Of a DNA stretch of 64,000 bases, positions 6,701 to 52,867 are shown one piece after another (position 1 is the stretch's first letter; every line of letters starts with the position of its first letter). Made by a program: the position numbers and the translations under genes. This stretch comes from Epibacterium sp. Ofav1-8 (lineage in GTDB: Bacteria; Pseudomonadota; Alphaproteobacteria; Rhodobacterales; Rhodobacteraceae). The stretch is taken from assembly GCF_022348185.1 (NCBI RefSeq), contig NZ_JAKRFD010000001.1, positions 1 through 64,000 of the forward strand, written 5' to 3'. A model generated the notes under the pieces. That model was not told where the DNA came from. It was given only the letters and a program-made list of their open reading frames with translations, and ran no database searches.

Positions 6701-6702
6701 TC

Positions 6703-24439: not shown

Positions 24440-25404
24440 TGGCGCTTGTCTCCGTCAAGAACCTGAGCCGTGTGTTTGACGTGTCCAAACCCTGGCTGAA
24501 CCGGGTGATCGAACGTGAACCCAAGGCTTTTCTGACCGCTGTGTCAGATGTGGATTTCGAGGTTGAGCCGCAGACCACCTATGCGCTGGTTGGCGAATCC
24601 GGGTCCGGCAAATCCACCATTGGCCGCATGCTGGTGGGGCTTTTGAATCCCTCGGACGGCAATGTGGAGATCGAAGGCGTTGATCTGGCGAACGAGACAG
24701 ACGCCGCCAAGGTCGATGCGATCCGCTCTGACATCCAGATGATCTTTCAGGACCCCTACGCCTCGCTCAACCCGCGCTGGCGGGTGCGTGACATCATCGT
24801 TGAACCCGTGGCGGCGCGTGGTGGCAAGACCGATGGGCTGGCCGAACGCCTGCTGGAACAGGTGGGTCTGTCGGTGAAAGACGCGGGCAAGTTCCCGCAT
24901 GAGTTCTCCGGCGGGCAGCGGCAGCGGATCTGTATTGCCCGCGCGCTGGCCTCCGAGCCGCGCCTGATCGTCTGTGACGAGCCCACCTCGGCGCTGGATG
25001 TGTCGGTGCAGTCGCAGGTGCTGAACCTGATGAGCGACCTCAAGGATAACTTTGGCCTGACTTATGTGCTGATCACCCACGATCTGACGGTGGTGCAGCA
25101 TATGGCGGACCGGATCGGGGTGCTCTACCTCGGGCGTCTGGTTGAGGAGGGCGCACCGGACGAATTATTCGAGCGCCCCAAACACCCCTATACGCAGATG
25201 CTGCTGGAGGCCGCCCCGCGTATGGATGGGTTCGGCCGCGAGGTGGCCCCGCCCGAAGGTGAAATCCCCGATCCGATCAACCCGCCGCCCGGCTGCGCCT
25301 TTCACCCGCGCTGCCCGCTGGCCGGTGACATCTGTCGACAAGAACGCCCCGAGATGCGCAGGATCGGGACAACCCGAGTCGCCTGTCACATGGCGGAGGG
25401 CTGA
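24439..25404 (+). CDS. dipeptide-type ABC transporter ATP-binding protein (DppF type)
   Basis: 321 residues. Walker A GESGSGKST, signature FSGGQRQRI, Walker B LIVCDEPTSALD, switch ITHD, and the C-terminal CAFHPRCPLAGDIC cluster. The start overlaps the DppD-type stop (TGATG) and is preceded by GAGGAGG. It forms the second half of the heterodimeric ATPase. Confidence 0.92.
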   Translation: MALVSVKNLSRVFDVSKPWLNRVIEREPKAFLTAVSDVDFEVEPQTTYALVGESGSGKSTIGRMLVGLLNPSDGNVEIEGVDLANETDAAKVDAIRSDIQMIFQDPYASLNPRWRVRDIIVEPVAARGGKTDGLAERLLEQVGLSVKDAGKFPHEFSGGQRQRICIARALASEPRLIVCDEPTSALDVSVQSQVLNLMSDLKDNFGLTYVLITHDLTVVQHMADRIGVLYLGRLVEEGAPDELFERPKHPYTQMLLEAAPRMDGFGREVAPPEGEIPDPINPPPGCAFHPRCPLAGDICRQERPEMRRIGTTRVACHMAEG

Positions 25405-38570: not shown

Positions 38571-38619
38571 TTTGATTTCCTCACTGTTGGTTTTTTGATG
38601 GTTGGTTTGGTGGCCCCGA

Positions 38620-39906
38620 TCAGGGGGCAAATCCGAGCGCACGCGGCAGCATCAGGGCCGCGTCCTCCCAGAATGCGAATAGGAAGAGGATGATCACTTC
38701 GGCGATCAGGAAGGGTGCGAGCTTGACCGAGATCCGCTCCAGCTTCTCGCCCGTGACCGAGGACAGCACGAACAGGCAGGCCCCCACCGGCGGCGTCATC
38801 AAAGAGATGTTGAGCGCCAGCACAAAGATGATGCCTGCATGGATCGGCTCCAGTCCGATCTGTTCGGTGAGCGGCACAAGCACCGGGCCGAGGATGATCA
38901 GGATCGCGGTGATATCCATCACCATGCCGACCACCAGCAGGATGCAGATGATGATGGCGATCACCGCATAAGGGTTCTCCGACAGGCCCAACACGCTGCC
39001 CGCAATGGCCTGCGGGATGCGCTCGAAACTCATCCACCAGCCCAAGATCCCGGCAAAGGCGATGATGACGAAGATCACACCGGTGATGCGCGCGGTGCGC
39101 ACCAACATCGCGTACAGGTCGGGAAAGGTCAGTGTGCGGTAGACGAAGAAGCCGATGAACAGCGCATAGGCCACAGCGATAGAGGCCGCCTCGGTCGGGG
39201 TGACGATCCCGCCAAGGATGCCGCCAAGAATGATGATCGGCATCAGGAGTGCAGTGATCGACGAGAGGAACGTCCTCCAGACCTCTCCCAATGTGGCACC
39301 GCGGTCGGCCTTGGGCAGGTTCTCGCGTTTGCCGCCAATGGCGATCACGCCCATGCAGACCGCACAGATCACCAATCCCGGCAGCAGCCCTGCTGCAAAC
39401 AGCCCACCGATGGAGACTCCCATCAAGGAGCCATAGACCACCATCAGCCCCGATGGCGGAATGGTCGGGCCGATGATTGACCCCGCAGCCGTGACCGCGC
39501 AGGCGTAATCGCGTTTGTACCCCTGTTTGACCATGGCGGGCACCAACGTACGGCCAAAGGCTGCGGCGTCGGCGGTGGCAGACCCGGTGAGACCGGCAAA
39601 GAACACCGAGGCCAGCATATTGGTATGGGCAAGGCCACCGCGAAAGCGGCCCACCAGCACCTCCGCCAGTTTCACCAGCCGCCCGGTGATGCCGGTGCTG
39701 TTCATGATCTCGCCCGCGAGGATGAAGAAGGGCATTGCAAGAAACGGAAAGATATTGAGCCCGTTGAAGATCTTGCTGGGTCCGATGGCGAGGAACGTGG
39801 TGCCGCCGCCCATGCTGAAGATACCGATGACACCCGCAAGCCCGATGGCAAAGCCGATGGGCATGCCGACGGCAAGCAGGACGACAAAACAGATGCCGAC
39901 GATCAT
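38620..39906 (-). CDS. TRAP transporter large permease (DctM type)
   Basis: 428 residues, almost entirely hydrophobic with about 12 membrane segments. It contains the characteristic GGTTFLAIGPSKIFNGLNIFPFLAMPFFILAGEIMNSTGI and GSIIGPTIPPSGLMVVYGSL re-entrant motifs. It drives Na+-coupled uptake with the small subunit and SBP. Its start overlaps the DctQ gene by 4 nt. Confidence 0.93.
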   Translation of the reverse strand: MIVGICFVVLLAVGMPIGFAIGLAGVIGIFSMGGGTTFLAIGPSKIFNGLNIFPFLAMPFFILAGEIMNSTGITGRLVKLAEVLVGRFRGGLAHTNMLASVFFAGLTGSATADAAAFGRTLVPAMVKQGYKRDYACAVTAAGSIIGPTIPPSGLMVVYGSLMGVSIGGLFAAGLLPGLVICAVCMGVIAIGGKRENLPKADRGATLGEVWRTFLSSITALLMPIIILGGILGGIVTPTEAASIAVAYALFIGFFVYRTLTFPDLYAMLVRTARITGVIFVIIAFAGILGWWMSFERIPQAIAGSVLGLSENPYAVIAIIICILLVVGMVMDITAILIILGPVLVPLTEQIGLEPIHAGIIFVLALNISLMTPPVGACLFVLSSVTGEKLERISVKLAPFLIAEVIILFLFAFWEDAALMLPRALGFAP

Positions 39907-40421
39907 GCGCCTGCTCCTTCTTCGCTATCGGTTTCGGGCAGATCAAGCTGTCGTCCGGCATCGCGGACCATCACCAGAACCACCTGCACGCAGGCCAGCG
40001 CGGCGGCGGGGATTGCGGCGTAGAAGGGCTGCAACGTCGCGCCAAGGATCATCGCCTGCCGCTTGGCGCCGCTTTCGGCAAAACCGATGCCGAACCACAG
40101 CACGTAGAAAAACAGGGCGAATGTCATCAGGTCGATGGCGATCAGCATCGCGCGGCGCAGCGGCGCGGGCAGGTTCAGCAAGACCGCCGTCAGACCGATA
40201 TGTTCGCGCCGCGCAATCCCCGAAGAGACCGCCAGCATCGCAGACCAGATCATCAGGTAGCGCGCCAGCACTTCGGGCCATGGCAGCTGCCAGTGAAAGA
40301 AGTAGCGATCCACAACGCCGATCCAGACGTCGAGCACCAGAGCCACCATCAGTGCGGCAAGGATGACCTCGGTCCCGCGGTTGATCTGGTGGCTTAGCCG
40401 ACCTGCAAAATCCCCGATCAT
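39903..40421 (-). CDS. TRAP transporter small permease (DctQ type)
   Basis: 172 residues, starting at 40421 (MIGDFAGRLSHQINRG) behind GGGGAG; the further upstream Met would overlap the operator. Four membrane segments. The second and third are joined by the conserved WPEVLARYLMIWSAMLAVSSGIARREHIGL loop. It is first gene of the leftward TRAP operon. Confidence 0.9.
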   Translation of the reverse strand: MIGDFAGRLSHQINRGTEVILAALMVALVLDVWIGVVDRYFFHWQLPWPEVLARYLMIWSAMLAVSSGIARREHIGLTAVLLNLPAPLRRAMLIAIDLMTFALFFYVLWFGIGFAESGAKRQAMILGATLQPFYAAIPAAALACVQVVLVMVRDAGRQLDLPETDSEEGAGA

Positions 40422-40443
40422 GACGACTCCCCGTTTTGTAATT

Positions 40444-40570
40444 AAGGTACACAATCAGGAGGTATTGCGGGTTCCGTCAAGTCATTTTTGTTACTTAGCT
40501 ACAAATATGGGTGTATAAAGGAAGAATTCGATGGCGATTTGACCTGAAAATGTATCTTAGGTACAGAATC
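40444..40570. promoter_or_regulatory. RpiR/TRAP divergent control region with repeated operator and rpiR promoter
   Basis: Two direct copies of AGGTACA-N-AATC lie at 40444-40456 (beside the TRAP start) and 40557-40570 (beside the rpiR start), about 113 bp apart, a spacing that allows looping. For rpiR a promoter TTGACC (40539-40544), 17-bp spacer, TACAGA (40562-40567) fits, with the second repeat covering its -10 box, which implies autorepression. Confidence 0.55.
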
Positions 40571-40596
40571 GCTTGATCAAATGACCGGAGAGACAG

Positions 40597-41502
40597 ATGC
40601 CGACACCTGACAACGGCCCCGCACAGGGCGCAGTGGATCTGATCTCCAATCTCCGCCAGTTGAACGGCACCTTTGCCGCGCGTGAGCAGAAGGTGGCAGA
40701 CTTCGTGTCGGCACATCTCGAGGAGATTTCCGGCATGACCATCGCCGAACTTGCGGGGGCGGTGGGGGTCAGCACGCCCACGGTTGTGCGCTTTTGCCGG
40801 AGCATGGGCTGTGACGGGTTTCGAGAGTTCAAATTACGCCTGGCACAGAACCTCGCGGTCAGCCTGCAATACCTCGCGCCCAGTCAGCGGGACGTGTCCG
40901 AGGGGGGCGCGGGCGCGGTCGATCAGGTGTTGGGCGCGCTCTATGCGACCGTGAATGTGATGCGTCAGCAGATCGTGCCCGAACGGCTTGATGCGGCGGT
41001 GCAGGCGTTGACGGAGGCCGGGCAGATCGTGGTCGCCGGGGTCGGCGGCGGATCAACCATGGTGGCGCAGGAGGCGGCCAACCGGATGTTCCGGCTTGGA
41101 ATTCCGGCAGTTGCGGTTTCCGACAGCTATCTGTTGCAGATGCGCGCGGCGACCTTGGGCGCGGGCGATGTGCTGCTGTTGGTCTCCACCAGCGGCGCGG
41201 CGGATGAAATCGTCAGCGCGGCGGGGATCGCCGGGGGCTACGGCGCAACGGTCGTGGCCATCACCCGCCCCGGCAGCCGGTTGGCGCAGGAAGCGACCAT
41301 CGCAATCGAGGCCGATCTGCCCGAAGATCCGGACATCCTGAAACCCACCGCATCGCGCTATGCCCATCTGGTGATCGTGGATGCGCTGGCAATGTCCGTG
41401 GCGCAGGCGCGCAGCGAGGCCACAACCGAAAACCTGCGCCGCATCCGGGCCTCTCTCACCGCCTATCACGGTCGCACGGGGCCGCAGCCCCTGGGCGACT
41501 GA
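40597..41502 (+). CDS. RpiR/MurR family transcriptional regulator
   Basis: 301 residues, GGAGAG upstream. The N-terminal HTH_6 domain (about 18-90) contains LREQ-like ARE QKVADFV and MTIAELAGAVGVSTPTVVRFCRSMGCDGFREFKLRLAQ. The C-terminal SIS domain (about 125-265, VVAGVGGGSTMVAQEAANR and VLLLVSTSGAADEIVSAA) binds sugar phosphates or related acids. It probably controls the divergent TRAP operon, with a keto-deoxy sugar acid phosphate a plausible ligand. Confidence 0.9.
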   Translation: MPTPDNGPAQGAVDLISNLRQLNGTFAAREQKVADFVSAHLEEISGMTIAELAGAVGVSTPTVVRFCRSMGCDGFREFKLRLAQNLAVSLQYLAPSQRDVSEGGAGAVDQVLGALYATVNVMRQQIVPERLDAAVQALTEAGQIVVAGVGGGSTMVAQEAANRMFRLGIPAVAVSDSYLLQMRAATLGAGDVLLLVSTSGAADEIVSAAGIAGGYGATVVAITRPGSRLAQEATIAIEADLPEDPDILKPTASRYAHLVIVDALAMSVAQARSEATTENLRRIRASLTAYHGRTGPQPLGD

Positions 41503-41505: not shown

Positions 41506-44500
41506 TCAGCCGCGCTGGGCGATCAAGGCGCGGAACTCCTCCAGCCGGGTTTCCATCGCATCAAAGCGCTGGGCGAGGGCCTTGTCCACGGTGTCGCGTT
41601 CCTTGAGCGAGAGCACAAAGCTCACGGTTTTCAGCACGTCCCGCCAGCGCGGGTTGTCGGGCAGGGTCTCGATCAGCAGGTATTTGTCGAGCGTGCGGGT
41701 CTGCAGTGATGTCTTGTCGAGGTTCACGCGCCAGATGCCACTGGTCTCGGCAAAGTCGATCTTGCCCTTGCCGGTCGCGGCGCTCCAGATCTCCAGCGAG
41801 TCCGACATCAGCGCCACGATGGTTTCGCGGTAGCTGTCACCGGGCGCGGCGCTGGCTTCTTCGGTGGTATCTTCTGTAATCAAGGAAGGCAGCGAAGTGT
41901 CGACCACATCACGCAGAGAGTGCACGAATTGCGCGCGCGGGGTTTGCGCCTGCGTGAACAGCACAGCACGCCCACCGCCCGCTTCGGGGAGCATGGCAAA
42001 CAGGCTGACCTGATGCGAGGTCCCACGCAGGGTGATTTCCATGTGGATCGGCTCGTCCTCGACTTCTGTTTGTTCCAGCGGGGCCAGAACCTCCGGGGGC
42101 AGAACCTCCTTCAGACGACTGCGGTTCACCGTCACGCGCTGGTCGAGAACCTGTTGCGCGGCGTCATTGACGTAAGTGACCACACCGCGGGCGTTGATGC
42201 AGATCAGCCCGTCCTCCAGCGTGTCGAGCAATTGTGTCATCCGGCGCTGCGACAGGCGCAGGGCGTCCTCGATCTGGATACGACGCTCGATCTCCTCTTT
42301 CAGTTCACGGTTTTCCTCGGCCCGGCTGCGGGCGCGGCTGGCCTCAAGAAGGGTGCGAATGCGGCTCAACAGCTCGTCTTTGACAAAGGGTTTCACCACA
42401 TAATCATTGGCGCCCGCCTCAAACCCCGCAAGCATATCGCTGGTGCGCCCGCGCGCTGTGAGCAGAATGATCGGCAGTTCATGCAATCCGTGGCGGCGGC
42501 GCAGATCCCGCGCCACGTCAAGCCCGCTGAGACCCGCCATCATCACATCCAGCACGATCAGATCAGGCCGGTCCTGCGCAACATTGCGCAGCGCTTCTGT
42601 CCCGTTGCGCGCGGTGGTGACACGGTAGCCTTGCGGTTGCAGTACATTTTGCAGCACTTGCAGGTTGATCGGCTCATCATCCACGGCGAGGATCATCGGC
42701 GACCCATCCGGTGCGGCCGGGCTGGTGTTGCCTGTCTCGGACTGCATCATCGGGGCCGGGGCAAGTTGCGTCGGCAGCCCGTCCTCAAGCGGCGCAATCG
42801 CCGGAAGGTCGGATTGCGGCAAGAGCACCCGGAATTCCGATCCCTCGCCGGGGGTGCTTGAGACCTCGATGCTGCCCGACATCAGATCCGCCAGATGGCG
42901 CGCAATGGTAAGCCCCAGACCGGTGCCTGTGGCCTGACCTGACCCTTCGGGCATCAGCTGTTCCAGCGGGTGAAAGATCCGCTCCATACTATCAGCAGCA
43001 ATCCCGGGGCCATGATCGCGGATTGCAAGTGCCATCTGCCCCGAGGTACGCCGCTCTGCGGTGATATGTACCTCGCTGCCGCCGCCATATTTCACCGCAT
43101 TTGACAGCAGGTTGAACAGGATCTGCTCAAACCGCACCGGGTCCGCAGTGACGGCGGGCAGATCTTCGGGCAGGTCGAGGTGGAATTTGGCCGGATCCAC
43201 CTGAAACGTCGGCTGCAACAATTGCAGCACGTTGCGCAGCGCATGGGCGACATCCACGGGCTGCAAATCCAGCCGCATGCGGCCCTCACGAATACGGTAG
43301 ATGTCCAGAAGGTCGTCCACCAGACGGGACAGGCGACGCGCGCTGAAGGTAATCAGACGCAGCTGGCTCGTCTGTGCGGGCAGCATGTCGCCCATGGCGC
43401 CGCCTTCCAGCGTTTCCAGAATGCCGATGATCCCGTTCAGCGGCGTGCGCAATTCGTGCGAGGTATTGGCAAGGAAGCGGTCCTTCATCCGGTCCGCTTC
43501 TTCGAGCTTGGCGTTCTTTTCGCCGATCTGGCGCAGGTTTTCCTGAAGCTCGGCGTTCTTATCGCGGATCATGTCGAGCTGATCGCGCAAGGCGCGCCGC
43601 ATCTGGTTCACGGCGCGCGAAAGGCGGGCATATTCCACCGGGTGGTCGTATTCCGGTAGCGCTTCGTTCAGGCTGCCGGTGGCGACCGCGCTGGCGGCCT
43701 CTGAAAGGCGCCGCACCGGGCGGGTCAGTGCGTTGGAAAACAAAAAGGACAACACCCCAAGCCCCGCGACAGCCACCGCCCCGATCAGGAACAGCGCGTT
43801 GCGCAACTGGCGGCTGGTGGCAAAGGCCGTGTCCCGGTCGGCCTCGGCGACGACCGTCCATTCGGGAAACGGCGGGTCCAGCACCCGCCAGGCCGACAGG
43901 GACGGGTCCCCCGAGAGACCTGCCTCCAGCAGGGCGACCCCATCCGCCCCGGACATCGCATCCGGCATATCACCGGGCGTCGGCCCGCCACTGGAGGCAA
44001 TGACCGTCCCTTGCGACGACAACACCGTCAGGGCGGTTTCGCTCTCGATCATCAGCCGTTGCAGGCTGTTGGGCGGCATGCGCAGGATCATCGCGCCTTT
44101 GTTGCTGCCATGCAGACGAACCGGCACCGCCAGATAGGCCACGAGATCCCCGGTGACCGCATCCAATGCGTAGTCCTGAAACACCGGATTATACCCCGGC
44201 TGGCTCACCGCGCGGCTATAGGCTTGCCCCAAACCAACAGTGCCCGGGTCCAGCATGCGCCCGAGGTAGCGATCTTTGTGCACCGAATAGACCACCTGAC
44301 CGTGACGATCCGCGAGATAGAGATTGTCGAATTCCGCCTCGTTCAAAAAGTCGAGAAACCCCGCGTGAAAGCGGCGATGGGTATTGGAATACTCCAGCGC
44401 CTCGCGCAGCAGCCGATCTTCGCTGCCGATACCGGACGGGGGCGCCGCAGGGCCATCGATATCGAAAATATTGCGCAGCTTGGCGCCAGCTTCCTCGGGG

Positions 44501-44787
44501 GTGCCGTCCATCTGCCGCAGCGCATGGCTAAAGCCATAAAACTCCCCCACGGAGTAGCGCACATTGGCAGACTGGGCGAGGTTTTCGGCCTGCCTGCGGG
44601 CATAGGTCATATACTGCGTGATCTCGCTGGCCTTCGCATCACGCACAAAGGCCACCTTCTGAAAGGTTTCGGTGGCGATGGTCTGATTGACCAGCCGATA
44701 GAACACCATGCCGCCCAGCGTCAGCGGCAGAACCGACGCAAGAAGAAAGGTAAACAGCAGGCGCGCGCGAATTCCCTGTAGCGGCAC
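41506..44787 (-). CDS. ChiS-like hybrid sensor kinase with C-terminal ChiS-family DNA-binding domain
   Basis: I choose the GTG at 44787 (VPLQGIRARLLFTFLLASVLPLTLGG, with CGGAG upstream), giving 1093 residues. An in-frame extension to 45072 reads as non-coding Arg/Ser-rich sequence. Domains: span 1 (about 10-32), periplasmic dCache-like sensor (33-328), span 2 (330-350), HAMP, coiled coil, HisKA with His444 in NTSHELRTPLNGI, HATPase (NLLSNAVKYGGG; DHGPGIA; GTGLGL), receiver with Asp747 in IVLDVMMAG, PAS-like (about 850-960). The last domain, near 985-1060, reads SGIWRVNLDKTSLQTRTLDKY, as in Vibrio ChiS. It likely senses chitooligosaccharide through the adjacent CBP-type SBP and directly controls that operon. 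It converges on rpiR with 3 nt between stops. Confidence 0.85.
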   Translation of the reverse strand: MPLQGIRARLLFTFLLASVLPLTLGGMVFYRLVNQTIATETFQKVAFVRDAKASEITQYMTYARRQAENLAQSANVRYSVGEFYGFSHALRQMDGTPEEAGAKLRNIFDIDGPAAPPSGIGSEDRLLREALEYSNTHRRFHAGFLDFLNEAEFDNLYLADRHGQVVYSVHKDRYLGRMLDPGTVGLGQAYSRAVSQPGYNPVFQDYALDAVTGDLVAYLAVPVRLHGSNKGAMILRMPPNSLQRLMIESETALTVLSSQGTVIASSGGPTPGDMPDAMSGADGVALLEAGLSGDPSLSAWRVLDPPFPEWTVVAEADRDTAFATSRQLRNALFLIGAVAVAGLGVLSFLFSNALTRPVRRLSEAASAVATGSLNEALPEYDHPVEYARLSRAVNQMRRALRDQLDMIRDKNAELQENLRQIGEKNAKLEEADRMKDRFLANTSHELRTPLNGIIGILETLEGGAMGDMLPAQTSQLRLITFSARRLSRLVDDLLDIYRIREGRMRLDLQPVDVAHALRNVLQLLQPTFQVDPAKFHLDLPEDLPAVTADPVRFEQILFNLLSNAVKYGGGSEVHITAERRTSGQMALAIRDHGPGIAADSMERIFHPLEQLMPEGSGQATGTGLGLTIARHLADLMSGSIEVSSTPGEGSEFRVLLPQSDLPAIAPLEDGLPTQLAPAPMMQSETGNTSPAAPDGSPMILAVDDEPINLQVLQNVLQPQGYRVTTARNGTEALRNVAQDRPDLIVLDVMMAGLSGLDVARDLRRRHGLHELPIILLTARGRTSDMLAGFEAGANDYVVKPFVKDELLSRIRTLLEASRARSRAEENRELKEEIERRIQIEDALRLSQRRMTQLLDTLEDGLICINARGVVTYVNDAAQQVLDQRVTVNRSRLKEVLPPEVLAPLEQTEVEDEPIHMEITLRGTSHQVSLFAMLPEAGGGRAVLFTQAQTPRAQFVHSLRDVVDTSLPSLITEDTTEEASAAPGDSYRETIVALMSDSLEIWSAATGKGKIDFAETSGIWRVNLDKTSLQTRTLDKYLLIETLPDNPRWRDVLKTVSFVLSLKERDTVDKALAQRFDAMETRLEEFRALIAQRG

Positions 44788-44917
44788 GGTGGCTCCGGTT
44801 TTTCTGGTTTTGTTGCGCGTGATCCTGCGGTTTGCGGCCCGCCGAAGCAAGAGCGCCGGGCGAAATCGCGATGCCTGTGGATCGGCAAGCGAACTCTCTA
44901 ACAGATTGGTCTGGCTG

Positions 44918-45048
44918 TATAATTGCGATACGTGAAAACGGCGCGCGCGGCGTTTTGACGAAATTTCCGATTTTTCGGGTACCATTGGAGGCGCAGCGCG
45001 GACTTCATTGTGGGACATCCCCGGCGTTTGGTGAGGAGACCAAATGCC
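44918..45048 (+). promoter_or_regulatory. promoter and structured leader of the CBP-type operon
   Basis: A perfect -10 TATAAT lies at 44918-44923; no good -35 exists, which fits activator dependence. Just downstream an inverted repeat AAAACG-N10-CGTTTT (44935-44956) could be an operator or a hairpin. At 45023-45048 the transcript can form a 10-bp stem (GGCGUUUGGU with ACCAAAUGCC, one G-U pair) whose 6-nt loop is GAGGAG, a Shine-Dalgarno-like, GGA-bearing loop. The remainder of 44788-45141 holds the sensor-kinase leader and the short ORF at 45052. Confidence 0.5.
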
Positions 45049-45051
45049 GCC

Positions 45052-45138
45052 ATGAATTCTATCATGGGCCACCTGTCACAAGGCGGTATCAGGCGGATGA
45101 ACACGAGGCGGGGCAAACCCGTCATCACAGGGAGATAG
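45052..45138 (+). CDS. possible 28-codon leader ORF before the CBP-type gene
   Basis: ATG at 45052, TAG at 45136-45138, ending 3 nt before the SBP ATG. The ORF runs through the SBP ribosome-binding site GGGAGA, so its translation could couple to or gate the SBP. The peptide begins MNSIMGHLSQGG and is Arg-rich at the end. A 3-codon ORF (ATG CCG CCA TGA, 45044-45055) just upstream shares the GAGGAG loop as its Shine-Dalgarno. The ORF may be chance; I report it for its position. Confidence 0.3.
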   Translation: MNSIMGHLSQGGIRRMNTRRGKPVITGR

Positions 45139-45141
45139 AAA

Positions 45142-46797
45142 ATGAAATTCACTGCTACCGCCGGGCTGCTGGCCTCGGTTGCGCTCTGGACCACCGCTGC
45201 TCAGGCAGAGGAAACCGTGCTGAGTGCGTTGCCGGAACAGGTCACCGCCTGGGTGGAGAACTTCAACCCGTTCAACCAGACCACCGCCGCGCCCTCGGTC
45301 ATGCATTTCATGTATGAGCCGCTGATTATTTTCAACGCGCTGGATGGCGGCAAACCGATTTACCGTCTGGCGACCGCATTTGAATATTCCGATGATCTCA
45401 GCACCATCACCGTGACCCTGCGCGAGGGCGTCCAGTGGTCCGATGGCGAGGCGTTCACCGCCGATGACGTGGTCAAATCCTTCGATCTGGCGCTGAGCGA
45501 TCCTGCGCTCGATAGCGTGGGCATGGCGCAGATGCTCTCTGGCGTCGAAAAAATCGACGAGATGACGGTGAAGTTCAACCTCTCCACCCCTTCCAGTCAG
45601 GCGATGTATCAGATCGTGCGCGTGCCGATCGTGCCGGAACACATCTGGAGCGACGTTGCAGACCCCGTCACCTTTACCAACCCTGATCCGGTTGGTTCTG
45701 GCCCGCTGACGGAAATCCGCCGCTTTACGCCGCAGGAATACATCCAGTGCCGCAATGACAATTATTGGGACGCCGAGAGCCTCAAGGTCGACTGCATGCG
45801 TTTCCCGCAGATCGCCAACAACGATCAGGCGCTGGCAGCCGCCGCCAATGGCGAGCTGGACTGGATGGGCTCCTTCCTGCCTGATATCGAGAACACCTAT
45901 GTTGCCAAGGACCCGGAGCATCACAGCTACTGGCTGCCCGCAGGCTCTCTGGTTGCGTTCTACATGAACTTTGAGGCCAAAGAGGCCGGCGACAAAGAAG
46001 CGATCAACGATGTGGCCTTCCGCCGTGCGGTGTCGATGGCGTTTGACCGCGAGGCGATGGTTGAAATCGCAGGCTACGGCTATCCGACGATCAACCAGTA
46101 TCCGTCCGGACTGGGCCGCGCCTATCACGCGTGGAACAATCCCGAGGTGGAAGACAAATTCGGTGCGTTCACCCGCTACGATATCGAGGGGGCCAAGGCG
46201 CAGCTGGCCGAAGCCGGGTTCAAGGATGTCGATGGCGACGGTTTTGTCGAGACCCCAAGCGGTGAGCAGATCGACATCGAAGTTATCGTGCCCAATGGCT
46301 GGACCGACTGGGTCAACAGCAGCCAGATCGCGGTTGAAGGTCTGAATGCAGCCGGCATCAAGGCCAATGTCTCAACCCCCGAATCTGCGATCTGGACCGA
46401 AAAGCTGATCAAGGGCGACTACGACATGGCGATCAATTCCGTTCGTGTCGGTGCGACCCCCTTCAACCAGTATCTGGACTCGCTGCATGAGATCAATCAG
46501 GCCAAATCGCGCTTTGCCGCCTCGCGCTATTACAATAAAGAGCTGAGCGGCCTGCTGGATGCCTTCACCCAGACCAGCGATACCGACAAGCAAATGGCGA
46601 TCATCGCCGATGTGCAAAAAATCGTCGGTGAAGACATGCCGCTGGCCTATGTGTTCAACAATCCGCGTTGGTATCAGTACAACACCAAGCGTTTTGAAGG
46701 CTTCTTTAATGCCGACAACCCGGTGGCCAACCCGGTGGTTCACAAGACCAATCCGGCCCGTCTGATCCACCTCCTGAACCTGCGCCCGGTCGACTAA
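45142..46797 (+). CDS. chitooligosaccharide-binding protein (CBP)-like ABC substrate-binding protein
   Basis: 551 residues with signal MKFTATAGLLASVALWTTAAQA. SBP family 5, but with the pattern of Vibrio CBP rather than peptide binders: VENFNPFNQTTAAPSVMHFMYEPLIIFN, RLATAFEYSDDL, VPIVPEHIW, FTNPDPVGSGPL, DCMRFPQIANNDQALAAAANGELDW and SPNGWTDW-like VPNGWTDWVNSSQIAVE. In Vibrio, CBP binds (GlcNAc)n and also holds ChiS inactive. The divergent ChiS-like kinase and the GH20 gene downstream support the same role here. Confidence 0.85.
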   Translation: MKFTATAGLLASVALWTTAAQAEETVLSALPEQVTAWVENFNPFNQTTAAPSVMHFMYEPLIIFNALDGGKPIYRLATAFEYSDDLSTITVTLREGVQWSDGEAFTADDVVKSFDLALSDPALDSVGMAQMLSGVEKIDEMTVKFNLSTPSSQAMYQIVRVPIVPEHIWSDVADPVTFTNPDPVGSGPLTEIRRFTPQEYIQCRNDNYWDAESLKVDCMRFPQIANNDQALAAAANGELDWMGSFLPDIENTYVAKDPEHHSYWLPAGSLVAFYMNFEAKEAGDKEAINDVAFRRAVSMAFDREAMVEIAGYGYPTINQYPSGLGRAYHAWNNPEVEDKFGAFTRYDIEGAKAQLAEAGFKDVDGDGFVETPSGEQIDIEVIVPNGWTDWVNSSQIAVEGLNAAGIKANVSTPESAIWTEKLIKGDYDMAINSVRVGATPFNQYLDSLHEINQAKSRFAASRYYNKELSGLLDAFTQTSDTDKQMAIIADVQKIVGEDMPLAYVFNNPRWYQYNTKRFEGFFNADNPVANPVVHKTNPARLIHLLNLRPVD

Positions 46798-46813
46798 GTC
46801 CTCCCCGACCTTC

Positions 46814-46846
46814 GGGACCGCTCATCTGATGAGTGGTCCCGCTTTT
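46814..46846 (+). other. hairpin with short U-tract after the CBP-like gene
   Basis: Long inverted repeat GGGACC-g-CTCATC / GATGAG-t-GGTCCC (46814-46840), continuous with one G-U pair, then GCTTTT. It may be a leaky terminator giving excess binding protein over permease. Confidence 0.65.
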
Positions 46847-46884
46847 GGCGCCACACTCCCCCTCCCGACAGATGGTTTGACCTG

Positions 46885-47862
46885 ATGCGTTTTCTTTTGA
46901 AGCGGCTCGGCTTTTATGCCGTTGCCTTTTTGGTGGCCGCGACCTTCAACTTCATGATCCCGCGCCTGTTGCCCGGCAACCCGGCGGATATCATGCTGGC
47001 GAACTCCGGTGGCATGATCGCACCCGAAGCGCGCGAGGCGCTGATGGCCACCTTTGGGTTCATCGACGCGCCGCTGCACGAACAGTATTTCGCCTATCTC
47101 GGCTCGATCTTCACCTGGGACTTTGGCCTGTCGATCAAGTTCTACCCGATGCCGGTTGCCGATGTGCTGACACAGGCGTTGCCGTGGACCTTGTTCCTGA
47201 CCGGCTCGGCCCTGTTGATTTCCTTTTCCATCGGCACGCTTCTTGGTGTGCTTGCGGCATGGCGGCGCGGGCAGCTTACGGATGTGATCGCCTCGCCCAT
47301 CGCGTTGGCGCTGCAATCGGTGCCCGCTGTCGTGGTGGCGCTTTGCGGGCTGTATTTCCTTGCGGTGCGCAACCGTTTCTTCCCGACCTCCTATGCCTTT
47401 GATCCCAAGCTGGACCCGGCGTGGAGCTGGGAGTTCATCTCTTCCGTGGCCTATCACGGCTTTTTGCCGGTGGTGACGCTGAGCGTGGTGCTGATTGGCG
47501 GCTACCTCATCACCATGCGCAACAATATGATTGGGCAGCTGGGAGAGGACTACCTCGCCATGGCCGAAGCCAAGGGCCTCAGCGATGCCCGCGTGCGCTA
47601 TGCCTATGCCGCCCGCAACGCGCTGCTGCCATCCGTCACCGCGCTGGCGCTCAGTTTCGGAGCGCTGTTTGGCGGCTCGCTGATCACGGAGGTGGTGTTC
47701 AACTATCCCGGTGTGGGCAACCTTTTGTACCTTGGCATCGTCGGGCGGGACTTCCCGCTGATCCAGGGCCAGCTCCTCATCATGACACTCGCCATGCTGC
47801 TCGCGAACCTCGCGGTGGATCTGGCCTATGTCTTCCTTGACCCCAGACTGAAGAGGGCCTGA
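46885..47862 (+). CDS. ABC transporter permease (DppB type) of the CBP-like system
   Basis: 325 residues. First span FYAVAFLVAATFNFMIPRLLPGNPADIM, and the EAA loop YLAMAEAKGLSDARVRYAYAARNALLPSVTA. The ending LAVDLAYVFLDPRLK is typical of DppB-type subunits. Coupled to the next permease by a TGATG junction. Confidence 0.9.
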   Translation: MRFLLKRLGFYAVAFLVAATFNFMIPRLLPGNPADIMLANSGGMIAPEAREALMATFGFIDAPLHEQYFAYLGSIFTWDFGLSIKFYPMPVADVLTQALPWTLFLTGSALLISFSIGTLLGVLAAWRRGQLTDVIASPIALALQSVPAVVVALCGLYFLAVRNRFFPTSYAFDPKLDPAWSWEFISSVAYHGFLPVVTLSVVLIGGYLITMRNNMIGQLGEDYLAMAEAKGLSDARVRYAYAARNALLPSVTALALSFGALFGGSLITEVVFNYPGVGNLLYLGIVGRDFPLIQGQLLIMTLAMLLANLAVDLAYVFLDPRLKRA

Positions 47863-48770
47863 TGTCAGATCTCCTCCGTACTTTCCTGCGCAACCGCAAG
47901 GCGGCCATCGGGCTTGCTATCGTGCTGGCCTATATCGCAATTGCATTGGCCGCGCCTCTGCTTGCCCCTTTTGATCCCATCGCCCGCGTAGGTCGTCCGC
48001 ATCAGGCCCCCTCGGCGGAGCATTGGCTGGGCACCACCCGCATGGGGCGCGATGTGTTCAGCCAGTTGATCTGGGGCACCCGCACCTCCTTGATGGTGGG
48101 TATTGTTGCAGGGCTGATCGTGACCGCCATCGGCACCTTCATCGGCATCACCGCCGCCTATTTCGGCGGTATCGTGGATGATGTGCTGAACTTCCTCACC
48201 AATGTGGTGCTGGTGCTGCCGCAACTGCCGCTTCTGCTGGTTCTGGCCGCTTTCCTCGGTCAGGTCGGACCCTGGGCGATTGCGCTGATTATTGGCCTGA
48301 CCTCTTGGGCCTGGGGTGCGCGCGTCACCCGTGCGCAGGCGATGTCGCTGAAAACCCGCGATTTTATTCAGGCCTCCGCGATGATTGGCGAGCCCACATG
48401 GCGGATGATCCTTGTGGAGATGCTGCCGAACCTTCTGTCGATCATCGGCTTCAATTTCATCGGCTCTGTCATTTTCACCATCATCACCGAGGCGACGCTG
48501 GAATTCCTCGGCCTTGGCAGCCCCTTGGCCCTGTCGTGGGGCACCATGCTTTACAATGCGCAGACCGCATCGGCGATTATGGTGGGCGCATGGTGGGAGG
48601 TGCTGGCCCCCTGTGCCGCCATCGTCCTGATCGGCGTGGGCCTGTCGCTGATGAACTTCGGCGTGGACGAGATCGCAAACCCGCGCATGCGCACCCTTGG
48701 CAATGTCGCCAAGGCACTCCGGATCGAAAAGCGCCTGTTGCGCCAACGGATGCAGGAGGCCAGCCAATGA
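47862..48770 (+). CDS. ABC transporter permease (DppC type) of the CBP-like system
   Basis: 302 residues. It has the DppC landmark HWLGTTRMGRDVFSQLIWGTRTSLMVG and the EAA loop FIQASAMIGEPTWRMILVEMLPNLLSIIG. The shortened N-terminus before span 1 is normal for the type. Its stop overlaps the ATPase start by 4 nt. Confidence 0.9.
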   Translation: MSDLLRTFLRNRKAAIGLAIVLAYIAIALAAPLLAPFDPIARVGRPHQAPSAEHWLGTTRMGRDVFSQLIWGTRTSLMVGIVAGLIVTAIGTFIGITAAYFGGIVDDVLNFLTNVVLVLPQLPLLLVLAAFLGQVGPWAIALIIGLTSWAWGARVTRAQAMSLKTRDFIQASAMIGEPTWRMILVEMLPNLLSIIGFNFIGSVIFTIITEATLEFLGLGSPLALSWGTMLYNAQTASAIMVGAWWEVLAPCAAIVLIGVGLSLMNFGVDEIANPRMRTLGNVAKALRIEKRLLRQRMQEASQ

Positions 48771-49579
48771 GCGCGCTTCTCTCTGTCGACGGTTTGCGGG
48801 TCGACTACCTGACCGCAGGCGAGCCTTTCACCGCCGTTCGGGACCTTTCGTTTGAGATCCAACCCAACGAGATCCTTGGTCTTGCTGGCGAGTCCGGTTG
48901 TGGCAAGAGCACGGTGGCCTATGCCCTGATGCGCCTGCACAAACCTCCGGCATTGGTGCGCCGTGGACGCATCCTGTTTGAGGGGCGCGATGTCTTGTCG
49001 TTCTCCGACAGGGATTTGCGCGCATGGCGCTGGTCCGAGGTCTCCATGGTGTTCCAAAGTGCGATGAACTCGCTCAGCCCGGTGATGACGATCTTTCGCC
49101 AGTTCTACGACATGCTGCGCGCGCACGGTCCGATCACTAAGGCGGACGCACAGGATCGCACCGCCCATATGCTGGAGATGGTCGGCATCCCGGCGGATCG
49201 CATGCAGTCACACCCGCATCAGCTGTCGGGAGGGATGCGGCAGCGGGTGGCGCTTGCGCTTGCGCTCACCTTGCAGCCCAAACTCATCATCATGGATGAG
49301 CCGACAACCGCACTCGATGTGGTGGTGCAGCGCGAGATCCTGCAAGAGGTGCTGCGGCTGAAGGATGAACTGGGGTTTTCGGTTCTGTTCATCACCCACG
49401 ACATTGCCCTGATGGCGCAGATCTCGGACCGCATCGGCATCATGCGCGCGGGCGAGATTGTCGAGTTCGGCACGGCCGCGCAGATCGTGACCAACCCGAG
49501 CCACGACTACACCCGCAGCCTGTGGGAGGCGATGCCGATCCTTGCCAAACGCCCGGAAGGAGCGCGTCATGCTGTCTGA
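48767..49579 (+). CDS. ABC transporter ATP-binding protein (DppD type) of the CBP-like system
   Basis: 270 residues from MSALLSVDGLRVDY, chosen for the ATGA overlap and GCAGGAGG upstream. Walker A GESGCGKST, signature LSGGMRQRV, Walker B LIIMDEPTTALD, ITHD switch. It ends shortly after the ATPase core and lacks the C-terminal Cys-rich oligopeptide domain seen in the DppD-type ATPase at 23465. The same short form is known in sugar-oligomer transporters of this family. Confidence 0.9.
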   Translation: MSALLSVDGLRVDYLTAGEPFTAVRDLSFEIQPNEILGLAGESGCGKSTVAYALMRLHKPPALVRRGRILFEGRDVLSFSDRDLRAWRWSEVSMVFQSAMNSLSPVMTIFRQFYDMLRAHGPITKADAQDRTAHMLEMVGIPADRMQSHPHQLSGGMRQRVALALALTLQPKLIIMDEPTTALDVVVQREILQEVLRLKDELGFSVLFITHDIALMAQISDRIGIMRAGEIVEFGTAAQIVTNPSHDYTRSLWEAMPILAKRPEGARHAV

Positions 49580-50498
49580 AACCCCGATCCTCAGCCTTGA
49601 TAGTCTCAGCAAGACCTTCACCTTGCGCCCCGCCTTCGGGCGCGCAACCGAGGTGCATGCGCTGCGCAATGTCTCGCTTGATCTGATGCCGGGCCGTGCG
49701 CTGGCGCTGGTGGGAGAGAGCGGCTCTGGCAAAAGCACCGTGGGCCGGATGATTGTTGGCCACCATACGCCGACCTCGGGCCGCATCCTGTTTGAGGGCC
49801 AGGACATCGCAGAGCTGACCACACGCGCCGATCAGATGCGCTATCGGCAAGCCGTGCAGATGGTGTTTCAGGACCCGTTTTCGGCGCTCAACCCCGCGCA
49901 CACGATCCGCCACCACCTGCTGCGCGCCCTGTCACTGCACCAGCCAGAGGCTGATCCCGAAACGGCCCTGCGCATGATCCTTGAGGATGTGGAGCTGGAC
50001 CCGATCTCGACCCCCGCAAAGTTCCCGCATGAACTGTCGGGCGGGCAGCGCCAGCGGGTGAATTTCGCCCGCGCATTGGCGGTCAAGGCGCGTCTGATCG
50101 TGGCGGATGAGCCGACCTCGATGCTGGATGTGTCGATCCGCAAGTCCATCCTTGGTCTGATGCAGCGCCTGAAAGACGAACACGGGCTGTCGCTCCTGTA
50201 TATCACCCACGACATCGCCACGGCGGAGTATCTGGCCGAAGACACGGCGGTGATGTTTCGCGGTCAGGTGGTCGAGAAAGGCCCCACCGCAGAGGTCGTG
50301 GGCGCGCCGCAACATGGCTATACGAAACTGCTGCGCGCGGCGGTTCCCGACCCAGAGCTGCGCCTCACCGGCAGCGATGCGGGCTTTGCCGCCGAGGCAC
50401 GCCGGGTGCGGGACCTCAGCGCGCATCCCGTCCGTGCCTTGCAGGAGGTCAGCCCCGGCCACCTCATCGCGCAACACGCGGAGGCCGCCCATGCCTGA
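49569..50498 (+). CDS. ABC transporter ATP-binding protein (DppF type) of the CBP-like system
   Basis: 309 residues from MLSETPILSLDSLSKTFTL, preceded by GGAAGGAG and overlapping the previous gene by 11 nt. Walker A GESGSGKST, signature LSGGQRQRV, Walker B LIVADEPTSMLD, ITHD switch. The C-terminal tail lacks the CxxxxRCP cluster. Overlaps the GNAT gene by 8 nt. Confidence 0.9.
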   Translation: MLSETPILSLDSLSKTFTLRPAFGRATEVHALRNVSLDLMPGRALALVGESGSGKSTVGRMIVGHHTPTSGRILFEGQDIAELTTRADQMRYRQAVQMVFQDPFSALNPAHTIRHHLLRALSLHQPEADPETALRMILEDVELDPISTPAKFPHELSGGQRQRVNFARALAVKARLIVADEPTSMLDVSIRKSILGLMQRLKDEHGLSLLYITHDIATAEYLAEDTAVMFRGQVVEKGPTAEVVGAPQHGYTKLLRAAVPDPELRLTGSDAGFAAEARRVRDLSAHPVRALQEVSPGHLIAQHAEAAHA

Positions 50499-50946
50499 TA
50501 TGCTGGTGCCGCTCTATCGTCTGCCGCCGGTGCCTGATCTCGCGGACGGCCTCACGATCCGGCCTGCACTGCCGTTTGAATCGCATGTCCTGCTGGAGTT
50601 CGTGGGTCGGCATTTCAGTCCCAAATGGGTGGATGAGTGCACGGTGGCGCTGGCTGCGCGCCCGGCGCGGGTTCTGATCGCGACCGAAGGCAAGCGCCTC
50701 TTGGGGTTTGCCTGCTATGACGTCACCTGTCGCGGCTTTTTTGGTCCCACCGGCGTCGACCCGCAGGCCCGGGGCAAGGGGCTTGGCAAGGCGCTCCTGC
50801 TCGCTGCACTGCATCGCCTCCATGACGAAGGGTTCGCCTATGGCATCATCGGTCAGGCGGGGCCGGTGGAGTTTTATCAGCAGGTCTGCGGCGCGGTGGC
50901 GATCCCGGACTCTGATGAGGGCGTCTTTGCGCGCGCCCTTGTCTGA
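50491..50946 (+). CDS. GNAT family N-acetyltransferase
   Basis: 151 residues. The acetyl-CoA pyrophosphate loop is VDPQARGKGLGKALLLAAL (about 90-108). The C-terminal FYQQVCGA matches the GNAT motif-B region. It overlaps the ATPase stop and lies 37 nt before GH20, so it is part of the oligosaccharide operon. A role acetylating a partially deacetylated chitin product (GlcN) is an attractive but unsupported guess. Confidence 0.8.
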   Translation: MPDMLVPLYRLPPVPDLADGLTIRPALPFESHVLLEFVGRHFSPKWVDECTVALAARPARVLIATEGKRLLGFACYDVTCRGFFGPTGVDPQARGKGLGKALLLAALHRLHDEGFAYGIIGQAGPVEFYQQVCGAVAIPDSDEGVFARALV

Positions 50947-50983
50947 CACCCTCTGACACATACAACCAACAGGATCATCTCAA

Positions 50984-52867
50984 ATGCATTTCCACCTCGA
51001 CAGCCTGTGGCACGCCGAAGAGGGCGCGATGGAGTTCGCGCTGACCAATTGCGGCGACACTCCGGTTGCAAATCCGCGCCTTGTCTACGCCACCCTGACG
51101 CGTTGCCTGCGTCCCTCGCGCTGCACGGGGGCGCGGCTGATACGGCGGCAGGCGAATTTTCACGAGTATGCCTCTGACGCGGGCTTTGTTCTGCAACCGG
51201 GCGAGACGTGGCGGTTCACCGAGTTCAACCTCACCCGTCCGGCGCTGCATTCCAATGAGGGGCCAAAATCTGCCGGAGTCTTGCTGGACGACGGAACTCT
51301 TGTCCCGGCCTTTGCGGGGGACTTGCAGGCCTCAGCGGCTGTTGCAGATACAAATGCATCGCAAAATGCGGTTCTAACATGCGGTGTTTTACCCGAGCCT
51401 CAGCAAACCGCCATTACGGAGTGGTGCGCCACGGCCCCTGTCCATCTGGCACTTCGGACCGATGACGTCGCGGTCATGCAGAGCGTGTCACAGGTGGCAG
51501 ACCTGACCCGCCGCCTGCATCCGCTGGCACCGACCCCCTTTGTGCTGATCGCCAAGGACGACGTCCCGCAGCTGACCGTTGAGGCGGATCAGACGCTGGG
51601 CGAGGACACCTATCGGATCACCTGGACGGAGGGTAAAGCCACGCTCTGCCATGGCGCAGGGCAGGGGCTGCTTTACGGCCTGATTACGCTGGCGCAGGTG
51701 CTGAGCAATGCCCATGCGGCGCCTGCGCGTTATGGCGTTCCCCGCAGTGGTCAGATCGAGGATGCCCCCCGCCACGGCTGGCGCGGCGCGCATCTGGATG
51801 TCTCGCGCCAGTTCTACCCGCTCGATCAGGTGCTGCGCTATGTGGACATTCTGGCGTGGCACAAAATGAACCGCTTTCATTGGCATCTGACCGATGACGA
51901 AGGCTGGCGGCTGGAGATCAAGGCCTATCCGCAGCTCACCGAGACTGCCGCACATACCGGGATGGACCTGCCAGTGTTGCCGCAGCTTGGCCCCGATATG
52001 ACGGGGCAGGGCGGCTATTATACGCAAGACGAGGCGCGACAGGTGGTGAAACATGCGGCCCGATTGGGTGTCGAGGTGATGCCGGAGATCGATGTTCCGG
52101 GGCACTGCGCCTGTGTGTTGGGGGCCTTGCCAGACCTCGTCGATCCAGAGGAACCCGAGAGCTACTGGTCGGTGCAGGGCTTTGGCAATAACGCGCTGAA
52201 CCCGGCCATCGAGGGATCGTATGTTTTCGCCGAGACCGTGCTGGCTGAGGTCTGCGAGATCTTCCCGTTTGAGGTCGTGCATGTGGGCGGTGACGAAGTG
52301 GCCGAGGGCGCATGGATGCAATCGCCCAAGGCAAAGGCGATGATGCGCGAAACCGGCCTGAAGGACACGCCGGAACTGCAGGCCTATTTCCTGCGCCACA
52401 TTCAGAACTTCCTCATCGGTCTGGGTCGCAAGCTTGGCGGCTGGGAGGAGGTCGCCCATGGCGGCGGTCTGGACCCCGCGCATAGCCTGCTGTTTGCATG
52501 GACCACCATCGAGAAAACCGCTGAGCTGGCGCAAGAGGGCTATGACGTGGTCAGCACGCCGGGGCAGGCCTATTACCTCGATATGGCGCTGTCGGATGCG
52601 TGGTATGCGCCGGGGGCCAGCTGGGCGGGCTTCACCCCGCTCGACAAGACCTATGCGTTTGAGGCCGACAATGGAGATGCGGCTCTAATTGGGCGTTTGA
52701 AGGGGGTTCAGGCCTGCGTCTGGAGCGAGCATCTGACCACGATGGCGCGCCGAAACCACATGATCTTCCCTCGCCTCAGCGCTATTGCCGAGGCCGGGTG
52801 GAGCACGGCGGAAAACAAGGACTACGACAGGTTCACAGCGCTCGCGGATCTGATGCCGCGTCTCTAA
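50984..52867 (+). CDS. GH20 beta-N-acetylhexosaminidase, cytoplasmic
   Basis: 627 residues without a signal peptide, so it acts on imported oligomers. An N-terminal beta domain (about 1-260) precedes the catalytic barrel. Hallmarks: WHKMNRFHWHLTDDEGWRLEIKAYP (292-316), EVMPEIDVPGH (364-374) and the catalytic pair Asp437-Glu438 in HVGGDEV. The aromatic WTTIE near 505 is also conserved. It releases terminal GlcNAc from chitooligosaccharides. The layout matches the cytoplasmic GH20 in the Vibrio chitobiose operon. Confidence 0.92.
   Translation: MHFHLDSLWHAEEGAMEFALTNCGDTPVANPRLVYATLTRCLRPSRCTGARLIRRQANFHEYASDAGFVLQPGETWRFTEFNLTRPALHSNEGPKSAGVLLDDGTLVPAFAGDLQASAAVADTNASQNAVLTCGVLPEPQQTAITEWCATAPVHLALRTDDVAVMQSVSQVADLTRRLHPLAPTPFVLIAKDDVPQLTVEADQTLGEDTYRITWTEGKATLCHGAGQGLLYGLITLAQVLSNAHAAPARYGVPRSGQIEDAPRHGWRGAHLDVSRQFYPLDQVLRYVDILAWHKMNRFHWHLTDDEGWRLEIKAYPQLTETAAHTGMDLPVLPQLGPDMTGQGGYYTQDEARQVVKHAARLGVEVMPEIDVPGHCACVLGALPDLVDPEEPESYWSVQGFGNNALNPAIEGSYVFAETVLAEVCEIFPFEVVHVGGDEVAEGAWMQSPKAKAMMRETGLKDTPELQAYFLRHIQNFLIGLGRKLGGWEEVAHGGGLDPAHSLLFAWTTIEKTAELAQEGYDVVSTPGQAYYLDMALSDAWYAPGASWAGFTPLDKTYAFEADNGDAALIGRLKGVQACVWSEHLTTMARRNHMIFPRLSAIAEAGWSTAENKDYDRFTALADLMPRL

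Follow-up and report, generated by a model that had tools for sequence, protein, structure and literature searches.

A probable ChiS-CBP chitobiose uptake module in the alphaproteobacterium Epibacterium sp. Ofav1-8, with a candidate operator and kinase-less relatives of its regulator

Results

Gene content of the locus

We analysed a stretch of 64,000 nucleotides from Epibacterium sp. Ofav1-8 (contig NZ_JAKRFD010000001.1, positions 1 to 64,000 of the forward strand; hereafter 'the window'), in which a chiS-type hybrid sensor kinase gene adjoins, in divergent orientation, an operon led by cbp, the gene for a chitooligosaccharide-binding protein (CBP) of the SBP_bac_5 family. The kinase gene lies on the minus strand (41506-44856) and all operon genes lie on the plus strand. 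Here, cbp (45142-46797), classified by PDB matches, tree position and ligand residues, is followed by two ABC permease genes (46885-47862, BPD_transp_1; 47862-48770, BPD_transp_1 and OppC_N), two ABC ATPase genes (about 48767-49579 and about 49563-50498), a GNAT acetyltransferase gene (about 50494-50946; Acetyltransf_1, E 1.2e-7) and a gene for a GH20 beta-N-acetylhexosaminidase (50984-52867; PF00728, E 2.1e-101). The transporter genes were assigned by Pfam; the first permease is 50-52% identical to the Vibrio chb permease, and the second permease and the two ATPases reach 47-48%, 54-55% and 50-52% to Vibrio, respectively. An initial annotation of this DNA had listed a kinase of ChiS layout divergent from a substrate-binding protein (SBP), two permeases, two ATPases, a GNAT protein and a GH20 enzyme, and every one of these genes is indeed present with an open reading frame (ORF), as judged from the ORFs of the window and Pfam.

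The kinase ORF is open up to a GTG at 45072, yielding a long form (41506-45072, minus strand) to which residue numbers of the kinase refer below. The kinase ORFs of the nearest relatives (L072 and L091-L099; L numbers denote the loci and genomes of our comparison) comprise 1096-1147 amino acids (aa), and homology to L091 places the start near 44856, which leaves ~285 bp of intergenic DNA. This DNA contains the candidate ChiS operator TTGACGAAATTTCCG (44955-44969, plus strand), which is located within a conserved tract (44952-44986), 187 bp ahead of the cbp start.

The substrate-binding protein groups with chitooligosaccharide binders

The nine best PDB matches of the SBP are all CBP chains (E 2.7e-168 to 3.5e-166), among them 1zty (1.1e-167), which we take to be a CBP of Vibrio origin. 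The next matches, 4pft and 1vr5, follow at 2.6e-57, and the bit score is 564 to Vibrio CBP as compared to 198 to the best non-CBP SBP. Structures 5yqw, 6lzq and 7ebi represent Vibrio CBP as well (PMC8449061). The stretches that the initial annotation had regarded as CBP-specific (NFNPF, PQIANNDQ, NGWTDW) are present and align with Vibrio CBP, the last one as ngwtdw versus ngwtdf. Judged by its sequence, the SBP is a member of the CBP family, grouping with chitooligosaccharide binders rather than with peptide binders, and it is 98% identical to the CBP of Tritonibacter mobilis NBRC101030, on account of which we assign the window to Tritonibacter. An ordinary peptide transporter was also considered and set aside, since the SBP is far closer to CBPs in the PDB search.

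Ten sugar-contact residues have been studied in VhCBP (PMC8449061), six of which are conserved in the window (N204, S221, W363, D365, R436 and F437). They include R436 and F437, to which the specificity of VhCBP for N-acetylglucosamine (GlcNAc) is mainly attributed (PMC8449061), and we infer that the ligand is (GlcNAc)2 or another chitooligosaccharide. Weighing against this assignment, the remaining four contacts are altered (E10 to Q, N409 to S, F411 to R and W513 to H), which means that three of the four major sugar residues (W363, D365, F437, W513) are kept. As a W513A exchange cost VhCBP 4.2 kcal/mol (PMC8449061), the histidine at this position may signify a different affinity or preferred ligand. 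The four replacements, the GNAT gene in the operon and the GH3 genes in or beside the operon at other loci would all be compatible with a transporter that imports another GlcNAc-containing ligand instead of chitobiose, e.g. a sugar from the cell wall or a fragment of partly deacetylated chitosan. However, R436 and F437 are both conserved and the operon includes GH20, rendering such a ligand unlikely. Position 513 is Trp in all 11 canonical Vibrio rows and His in all 19 Aeromonas rows; it is His, Tyr or Phe in the alphaproteobacterial and divergent-gammaproteobacterial ChiS groups. F437 is kept in 19/23 Devosiaceae/Rhizobium rows, 9/12 divergent-gamma rows and 4/7 rows from loci with a kinase-less ChiS ('mini-ChiS', see below).

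Additional CBP-like proteins were noticed along the way. A distant paralogue, found in genomes of the vibrio group and in one relative (L046, L050, L051, L052), has W in place of R436, H in place of F437 and Y in place of W513, and probably binds another sugar. Two cbp genes stand in tandem in three Aeromonas loci (L147, L155, L168), and two Motilimonas loci (L133, L136) possess a divergent second CBP paralogue downstream, with 42-43% identity to the CBP of the window.

The kinase resembles ChiS in sensor, domain order and DNA-binding domain

Two transmembrane (TM) helices (residues 101-119 and 427-445) flank the dCache sensor of the kinase (dCache_1, E 4.1e-13), a predicted model of which (pLDDT 84.8) resembles dCache-type sensors. 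Pfam domains HAMP, HisKA, HATPase_c, receiver and PAS follow in the order known from ChiS, the PAS match being weak (5.3e-5, barely above cut-off). The C-terminus forms a ChiS-family DNA-binding domain (DBD; residues 1076-1180, 41533-41847 on the minus strand), which matches PDB entry 7kpo, the DBD of V. cholerae ChiS, with phmmer E-values of 3e-21 and, in another search, 9.6e-23. Residues R1068, R1074, K1078, R1090 and R1092 are essential in the ChiS DBD, R1068 being poorly conserved (PMC8092284). The latter four are identical in the window, and R1068 is replaced by K, as observed in 24/66 full-length ChiS rows with the window counted. The periplasmic sensor shares 24% identity with that of Vibrio ChiS over 368 aa. 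The relation to ChiS proposed in the initial annotation thus extends beyond HisKA and receiver, as both the DBD and the sensor are ChiS-like.

As a side observation, ChiS-family DBDs also occur in ORFs of 392-987 aa in genomes without CBP at the cut-off (L054, L056, L065-L070); these proteins are possibly ChiS-type regulators of other systems.

CBP and ChiS co-occur and share their history

Among 61 related genomes, the one under study included, seven encode CBP (E <= 1e-100) and eight the DBD (E <= 0.001); both are found together in seven, and the eighth DBD match is weak (5e-4). Both proteins are encoded by 6/18 genomes of the genus, and no CBP at E <= 1e-100 was found in the 19 genomes that represent other genera of the family in this sample. 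At class level (385 genomes), CBP (E <= 1e-120) and DBD (E <= 1e-8) were each detected in nine genomes, the nine being the same for both. At phylum level (398 genomes), 17 genomes have CBP, 15 the DBD and 10 both. A scan of named genomes provided 502 confirmed CBP matches, the best 80 of which are referred to as 'named loci'. A DBD protein is present at 66 of them, that is a full-length ChiS at 63 and a mini-ChiS at three. Full-length chiS is divergent from the operon in 53 cases and codirectional in 10, all of the latter from Aeromonas; two mini-ChiS genes are divergent and one is located downstream. Beyond the window, CBP and ChiS are found together in Rhodobacterales, Hyphomicrobiales, Aeromonas and further Gammaproteobacteria. 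A relative of the GNAT gene is present in 30/80 named loci.

Several counts weigh against a strict partnership. In the phylum sample, 7/17 CBP genomes lack the DBD, six of them sharing one alphaproteobacterial family code, and 5/15 DBD genomes lack CBP. Moreover, 8/80 named loci show no DBD protein despite at least 7 kb of room upstream; in six more without one, the contig or the upstream stretch is short. In view of the unpaired phylum genomes and the eight DBD-less loci, pairing of CBP and ChiS is not obligatory. At L087-L090, L148, L160, L170 and L139, the stretch examined likewise contains a CBP operon and no ChiS. L148, labelled Mycobacterium, may be a mislabelled record, since its CBP groups with that of Inquilinus.

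In the CBP tree (121 rows), 46 alphaproteobacterial rows form a clade (SH-aLRT 98) that includes the window, which is placed within a roseobacter group. The ChiS tree, built from sensor and DBD (74 rows), recovers the same main groups, with L080 and L134 as long branches of unsure placement. The trees of both proteins, as called for by the initial annotation, accordingly agree and place the window among Alphaproteobacteria. Distance matrices for 73 pairs correlate with r = 0.92 between CBP and ChiS sensor (0/2000 permutations as high, the best reaching 0.12) and with r = 0.85 between CBP and DBD (none of 2000 permutations above 0.14). Since shared ancestry of the genomes contributes to these values, they speak for joint inheritance and not for contact. 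A further point on the debit side is that related loci are not independent, and permutation and shuffle values therefore overstate significance.

The initial annotation had left a choice between horizontal transfer and a broader ancient system. A recent transfer of the pair from Vibrionaceae would agree with its patchy presence (6/18 genomes of the genus, 0/19 from other genera) and has a precedent of a kind: L132, labelled Hyphomicrobiales, sits with Oceanospirillaceae and Osedax symbionts in both trees, and the whole pair has moved between classes in this one case. However, the CBP of the window is 63-72% identical to CBPs of Nitratireductor, Pannonibacter and Thalassovita/Zongyanglinia and merely 45-47% to the best Vibrio CBPs, it belongs to the well-supported alphaproteobacterial clade, and its gene orientation is unlike that of canonical Vibrio. 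The vibrios L124, L125 and L169, which have a divergent form of CBP, reach 54-57%. On account of the CBP identities and the alphaproteobacterial clade in both trees, we set recent transfer from Vibrio aside as highly improbable; a broader and older system fits better.

A 9-bp direct repeat is a candidate ChiS operator

The roseobacter intergenic regions have a common tract, TTTTGACGAAATTTCCGATTTTTC (44953-44976 in the window), and a scan with this tract retrieved similar tracts ahead of CBP in several other groups. Two patterns were used, a strict one describing a 9-bp direct repeat, T[GTA][AC]CG-N4-T[GTA][AC]CG, and a looser one, YTNNCG-N3-YTNNCG, sought in the 400 bp ahead of the first operon gene. 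As the patterns were written after the tracts had been seen, spacing, strand and ChiS-less controls outweigh the raw counts. Ninety 'ChiS regions' were assigned by clade, 82 of which have a ChiS or mini-ChiS ORF in the stretch. The other eight comprise six Aeromonas regions, L123, which has a truncated ChiS-like match at the contig end, and Vibrio L043, whose ChiS is encoded elsewhere in the genome.

The strict pattern is present in sense orientation in 68/90 regions, in antisense orientation in one and in none of eight regions from ChiS-less groups, and the strict half-site repeated at any other spacing from 0 to 11 is found in at most 9/90 regions. Of the 82 regions whose stretch includes a ChiS gene, 61 carry the strict site: 14/15 in roseobacters, 6/6 in Nitratireductor, 2/2 in Pannonibacter, 16/22 in Devosiaceae/Rhizobium, 3/10 in divergent gammas, 9/10 in Aeromonas, 8/8 in Vibrio, 2/8 in mini-ChiS loci and 1/1 in G247. 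The looser pattern occurs in 15/15 roseobacter, 6/6 Nitratireductor, 2/2 Pannonibacter, 19/23 Devosiaceae/Rhizobium, 4/10 divergent-gamma, 7/16 Aeromonas, 9/9 canonical Vibrio and 6/8 mini-ChiS regions (two of these weak) and in 0/1 for G247. Only one of eight CBP regions without ChiS has it, and dinucleotide shuffles predict ~2.1 per 90 regions. It is less specific, being found antisense in 9/90 regions, six of them from Aeromonas, and at other spacings in up to 24/90. At L124, L125 and L169, the looser site precedes CBP itself and not the GH3 gene taken as first, and at L083 and L084 it lies within the long form of the mini-ChiS ORF. In the genome under study, TTKACGANNYTNNCGA has five matches as compared to one for the reversed pattern; judged from the surrounding ORFs, only the copy in the window looks regulatory.

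Taken together, we consider the 9-bp direct repeat a candidate ChiS operator. Two observations count against this assignment. First, 21/82 regions with a ChiS gene lack the strict site. Second, all six Aeromonas regions in which the stretch contains no ChiS ORF (L146, L149, L150, L151, L157, L163) have it, which speaks against an invariable link to an adjacent ChiS gene, unless these genomes encode ChiS elsewhere. The repeat might instead belong to a promoter or be bound by another regulator, e.g. one for sugar or catabolite control. TTGACG looks like a sigma-70 -35 box, the strict form is found in just two of eight mini-ChiS loci, and the six Aeromonas regions have no ChiS gene in reach. This explanation is a serious contender, but we rate it as the less probable one, because only the 9-bp period is enriched, on one strand and in none of the ChiS-less groups, and because the repeat accompanies full-length ChiS in both Gamma- and Alphaproteobacteria. 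In addition, Vibrio regions contain either a single copy or two copies spaced by 30 bp (L041, L044, L045), and this number and spacing fit the two ChiS sites described within a 60-bp probe (PMC8092284).

Some loci encode a ChiS without kinase half

Eight non-redundant alphaproteobacterial loci (L076, L077, L079, L083, L084, L134, L152 from Niveispirillum and L158 from AAP38) encode a mini-ChiS near a CBP operon, that is an ORF of 474-624 aa composed of a ChiS sensor and the DBD with no histidine kinase or receiver match between them. Pfam scans (E <= 1) of six of the eight, L134 being represented by its twin L081, detected no HAMP, kinase, receiver or PAS domain; dCache_1 was found in four of the six at 4e-5 to 2e-4, under the curated cut-off, and two gave no dCache match. 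The five essential DBD positions are all R or K in 8/8 proteins. By eye, the linker after the second TM helix is rich in Pro, Ala and acidic residues. In a model of the L152 protein, which is poor as a whole (mean pLDDT 59.7), residues 351-420 have pLDDT values of 27-45, and the model resembles dCache-type sensors and 7kpo (48% identity, TM-score 0.77 by target).

Seven mini-ChiS proteins form one clade in the ChiS tree and L134 stands apart, corresponding to two changes. Since the data do not reject a single clade comprising all eight (p-AU 0.117; 0.07 on the CBP side, 44-row tree), we claim only one loss of the kinase half. Loss rather than gain fits because L080, the sister of the main mini-ChiS group on the CBP side (support 98-99), has a full kinase; support for L080 in the ChiS tree is 29. 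At several loci, a GH3 (NagZ-like) gene is located between ChiS or mini-ChiS and CBP (L076, L077, L079, L083, L084, L124, L137, L142, L152, L158, L169), as confirmed by Pfam for L152 and L158 and assigned by eye or BLAST for the others.

The mini-ChiS loci also bear on how the kinase of the window works. With HisKA, HATPase and receiver intact by Pfam, and the H-box motif matched in 66/68 full-length ChiS proteins, it could act on a separate response regulator through a conventional phosphorelay, its C-terminal domain not serving as a DNA-binding activator here. We regard this as improbable, because the C-terminal domain and its essential residues are conserved and because eight loci lacking histidine kinase and receiver have retained sensor, DBD and CBP operon. 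The existence of natural kinase-less forms near the same type of operon suggests that the route from sensor to DNA is likely the core of ChiS signalling, with the phosphorelay as a layer on top. In a wider reading, which we hold to be about evenly poised, ChiS, CBP and the 9-bp operator would be an old, co-inherited unit of Alpha- and Gammaproteobacteria with an optional phosphorelay core. Mini-ChiS, arisen by loss of kinase, receiver and PAS in at least one alphaproteobacterial lineage and possibly in two, would have its dCache sensor joined to the DBD by a flexible linker, would still answer to CBP and, in some members of the lineage, would use the 9-bp repeat. Lacking a HAMP domain and a kinase coiled-coil, such a protein would need to signal by pairing or clustering of sensors and not by a helical stroke.

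GlcNAc genes and neighbours of the locus

About 30 kb from the ChiS module, the window contains GlcNAc catabolic genes (289-10574). These include NagA (9432-10574; TIGR00221, E 2.3e-73, above cut-off) as well as genes for a SIS-domain protein (8407-9435), a BadF-type kinase-like protein (6547-7590) and a GntR/UTRA regulator (7457-8332). Parts of a sugar ABC importer were also scanned, namely an ATPase (289-1284) and an SBP (4327-5715). Profile searches covering the entire 4.76-Mb genome identified the GH20 of the operon as the sole GH20 match, and no signal peptide was recognized in it by eye. There was no GH18 match genome-wide, whereas 6/14 control genomes gave a match, five of them above cut-off. 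This is a point against the proposed uptake module, as the sugar must then come from outside or from another enzyme. A GH19 search was uninformative since the control genomes were silent. Given the lack of a GH18 match and the GlcNAc genes in the same window, the organism probably scavenges short chitooligosaccharides.

Adjacent to the module, a TRAP transporter (DctP, DctM) is encoded next to an RpiR-type regulator (37527-41502); in Tritonibacter, the regulator abuts the kinase gene. In L094-L098, which are mostly Shimia, a relative of this regulator (63-66%) flanks the operon at its opposite side. A second SBP_bac_5 operon (19825-25404) comprises an SBP, two permease-length ORFs and two ATPases, the latter ~41-42% identical to those of the CBP operon.

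Discussion

Gene content, domain order, conserved residues, co-occurrence, agreeing trees and a conserved site, as obtained by comparison, make it very likely that this locus is a ChiS-CBP-chitobiose uptake module. In V. cholerae, CBP represses ChiS as long as chitin is absent; once activated, ChiS binds to the chb promoter while residing in the membrane (PMC5519180, PMC11856585, PMC10208484). All parts named in such a scheme, i.e. ChiS, CBP, transporter and hydrolase, are present in the window, and we infer a similar course of events. That is, CBP would bind chitooligosaccharides in the periplasm and its ABC transporter would import them; GH20, taken as cytoplasmic, would release GlcNAc from the imported sugar, which the kinase-like, deacetylase and SIS genes of the window would take into metabolism. 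As a guess, the GNAT protein might re-acetylate glucosamine-containing sugars so that GH20 can act. CBP may double as a co-receptor whose state is sensed by the dCache domain of ChiS, the product of the divergent gene. Once active and still membrane-bound, ChiS would then bind the 9-bp repeat at 44955-44969 via its C-terminal DBD, and binding between the two genes would switch the operon on.

ChiS serves as a model of regulators that reside in the membrane and yet bind directly to DNA, and the work that we found on it is in Vibrio. The present locus and its relatives supply many natural ChiS variants, and with the candidate operator at hand, DNA binding can be tested outside Vibrio. Kinase-less forms represent a natural test of the need for the kinase half, and mini-ChiS offers a small protein for asking how a periplasmic signal crosses the membrane. 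The module is also a marker for the uptake of chitooligosaccharides by Alphaproteobacteria from the sea and from soil, and the organism studied here, having no GH18 match, may live on what others leave of chitin. A literature search, whose reach excluded the key 2020 paper and supplements, did not find CBP-paired kinase-less forms or a shared operator, and at the level of titles and listings it returned nothing on point for alphaproteobacterial ChiS or CBP.

The closest known counterpart is the ChiS-CBP-chb system of V. cholerae (VC0622/VC0620-0611; PMC12282291). Kinase domain order, the essential DBD residues, CBP, homologous permeases and ATPases and a GH20 in the cluster are alike. The Vibrio-like arrangement suggested by the initial annotation holds as far as adjacency of chiS and the CBP operon is concerned; orientation differs, since chiS lies upstream of the operon and in the same direction in the two canonical Vibrio loci analysed together with their flanks (L085, L086) and is divergent in the window. 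In contrast to Vibrio, the window has H instead of W513 in CBP, a GH20 with just ~39% identity over 444 aa and a GNAT gene, and its genome lacks a GH18 match. V. cholerae additionally needs a SlmA site (PMC5519180). Aeromonas resembles the window in having full-length ChiS beside the CBP operon in 10/16 loci and GH20 in most of the longer stretches, and differs in codirectional genes, in tandem cbp genes at three loci and in six loci without a ChiS gene in the stretch. Mini-ChiS loci likewise combine a sensor and a ChiS-family DBD near a CBP operon and share the repeat in its looser form (6/8) more often than in its strict form (2/8); unlike the window, they show no HAMP, kinase, receiver or PAS domain in Pfam scans of six of the eight, and they have a Pro/Ala-rich linker and a GH3 gene beside the operon. 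The spread of the DBD as such is not new, as its presence in diverse proteobacteria, combined with diverse sensory modules, has been reported, other architectures accounting for 587 of 3,829 hits (PMC8092284). As far as it was covered here, the text of that paper links none of these proteins to CBP; what they have in common with the kinase described here is the C-terminal ChiS-family DBD.

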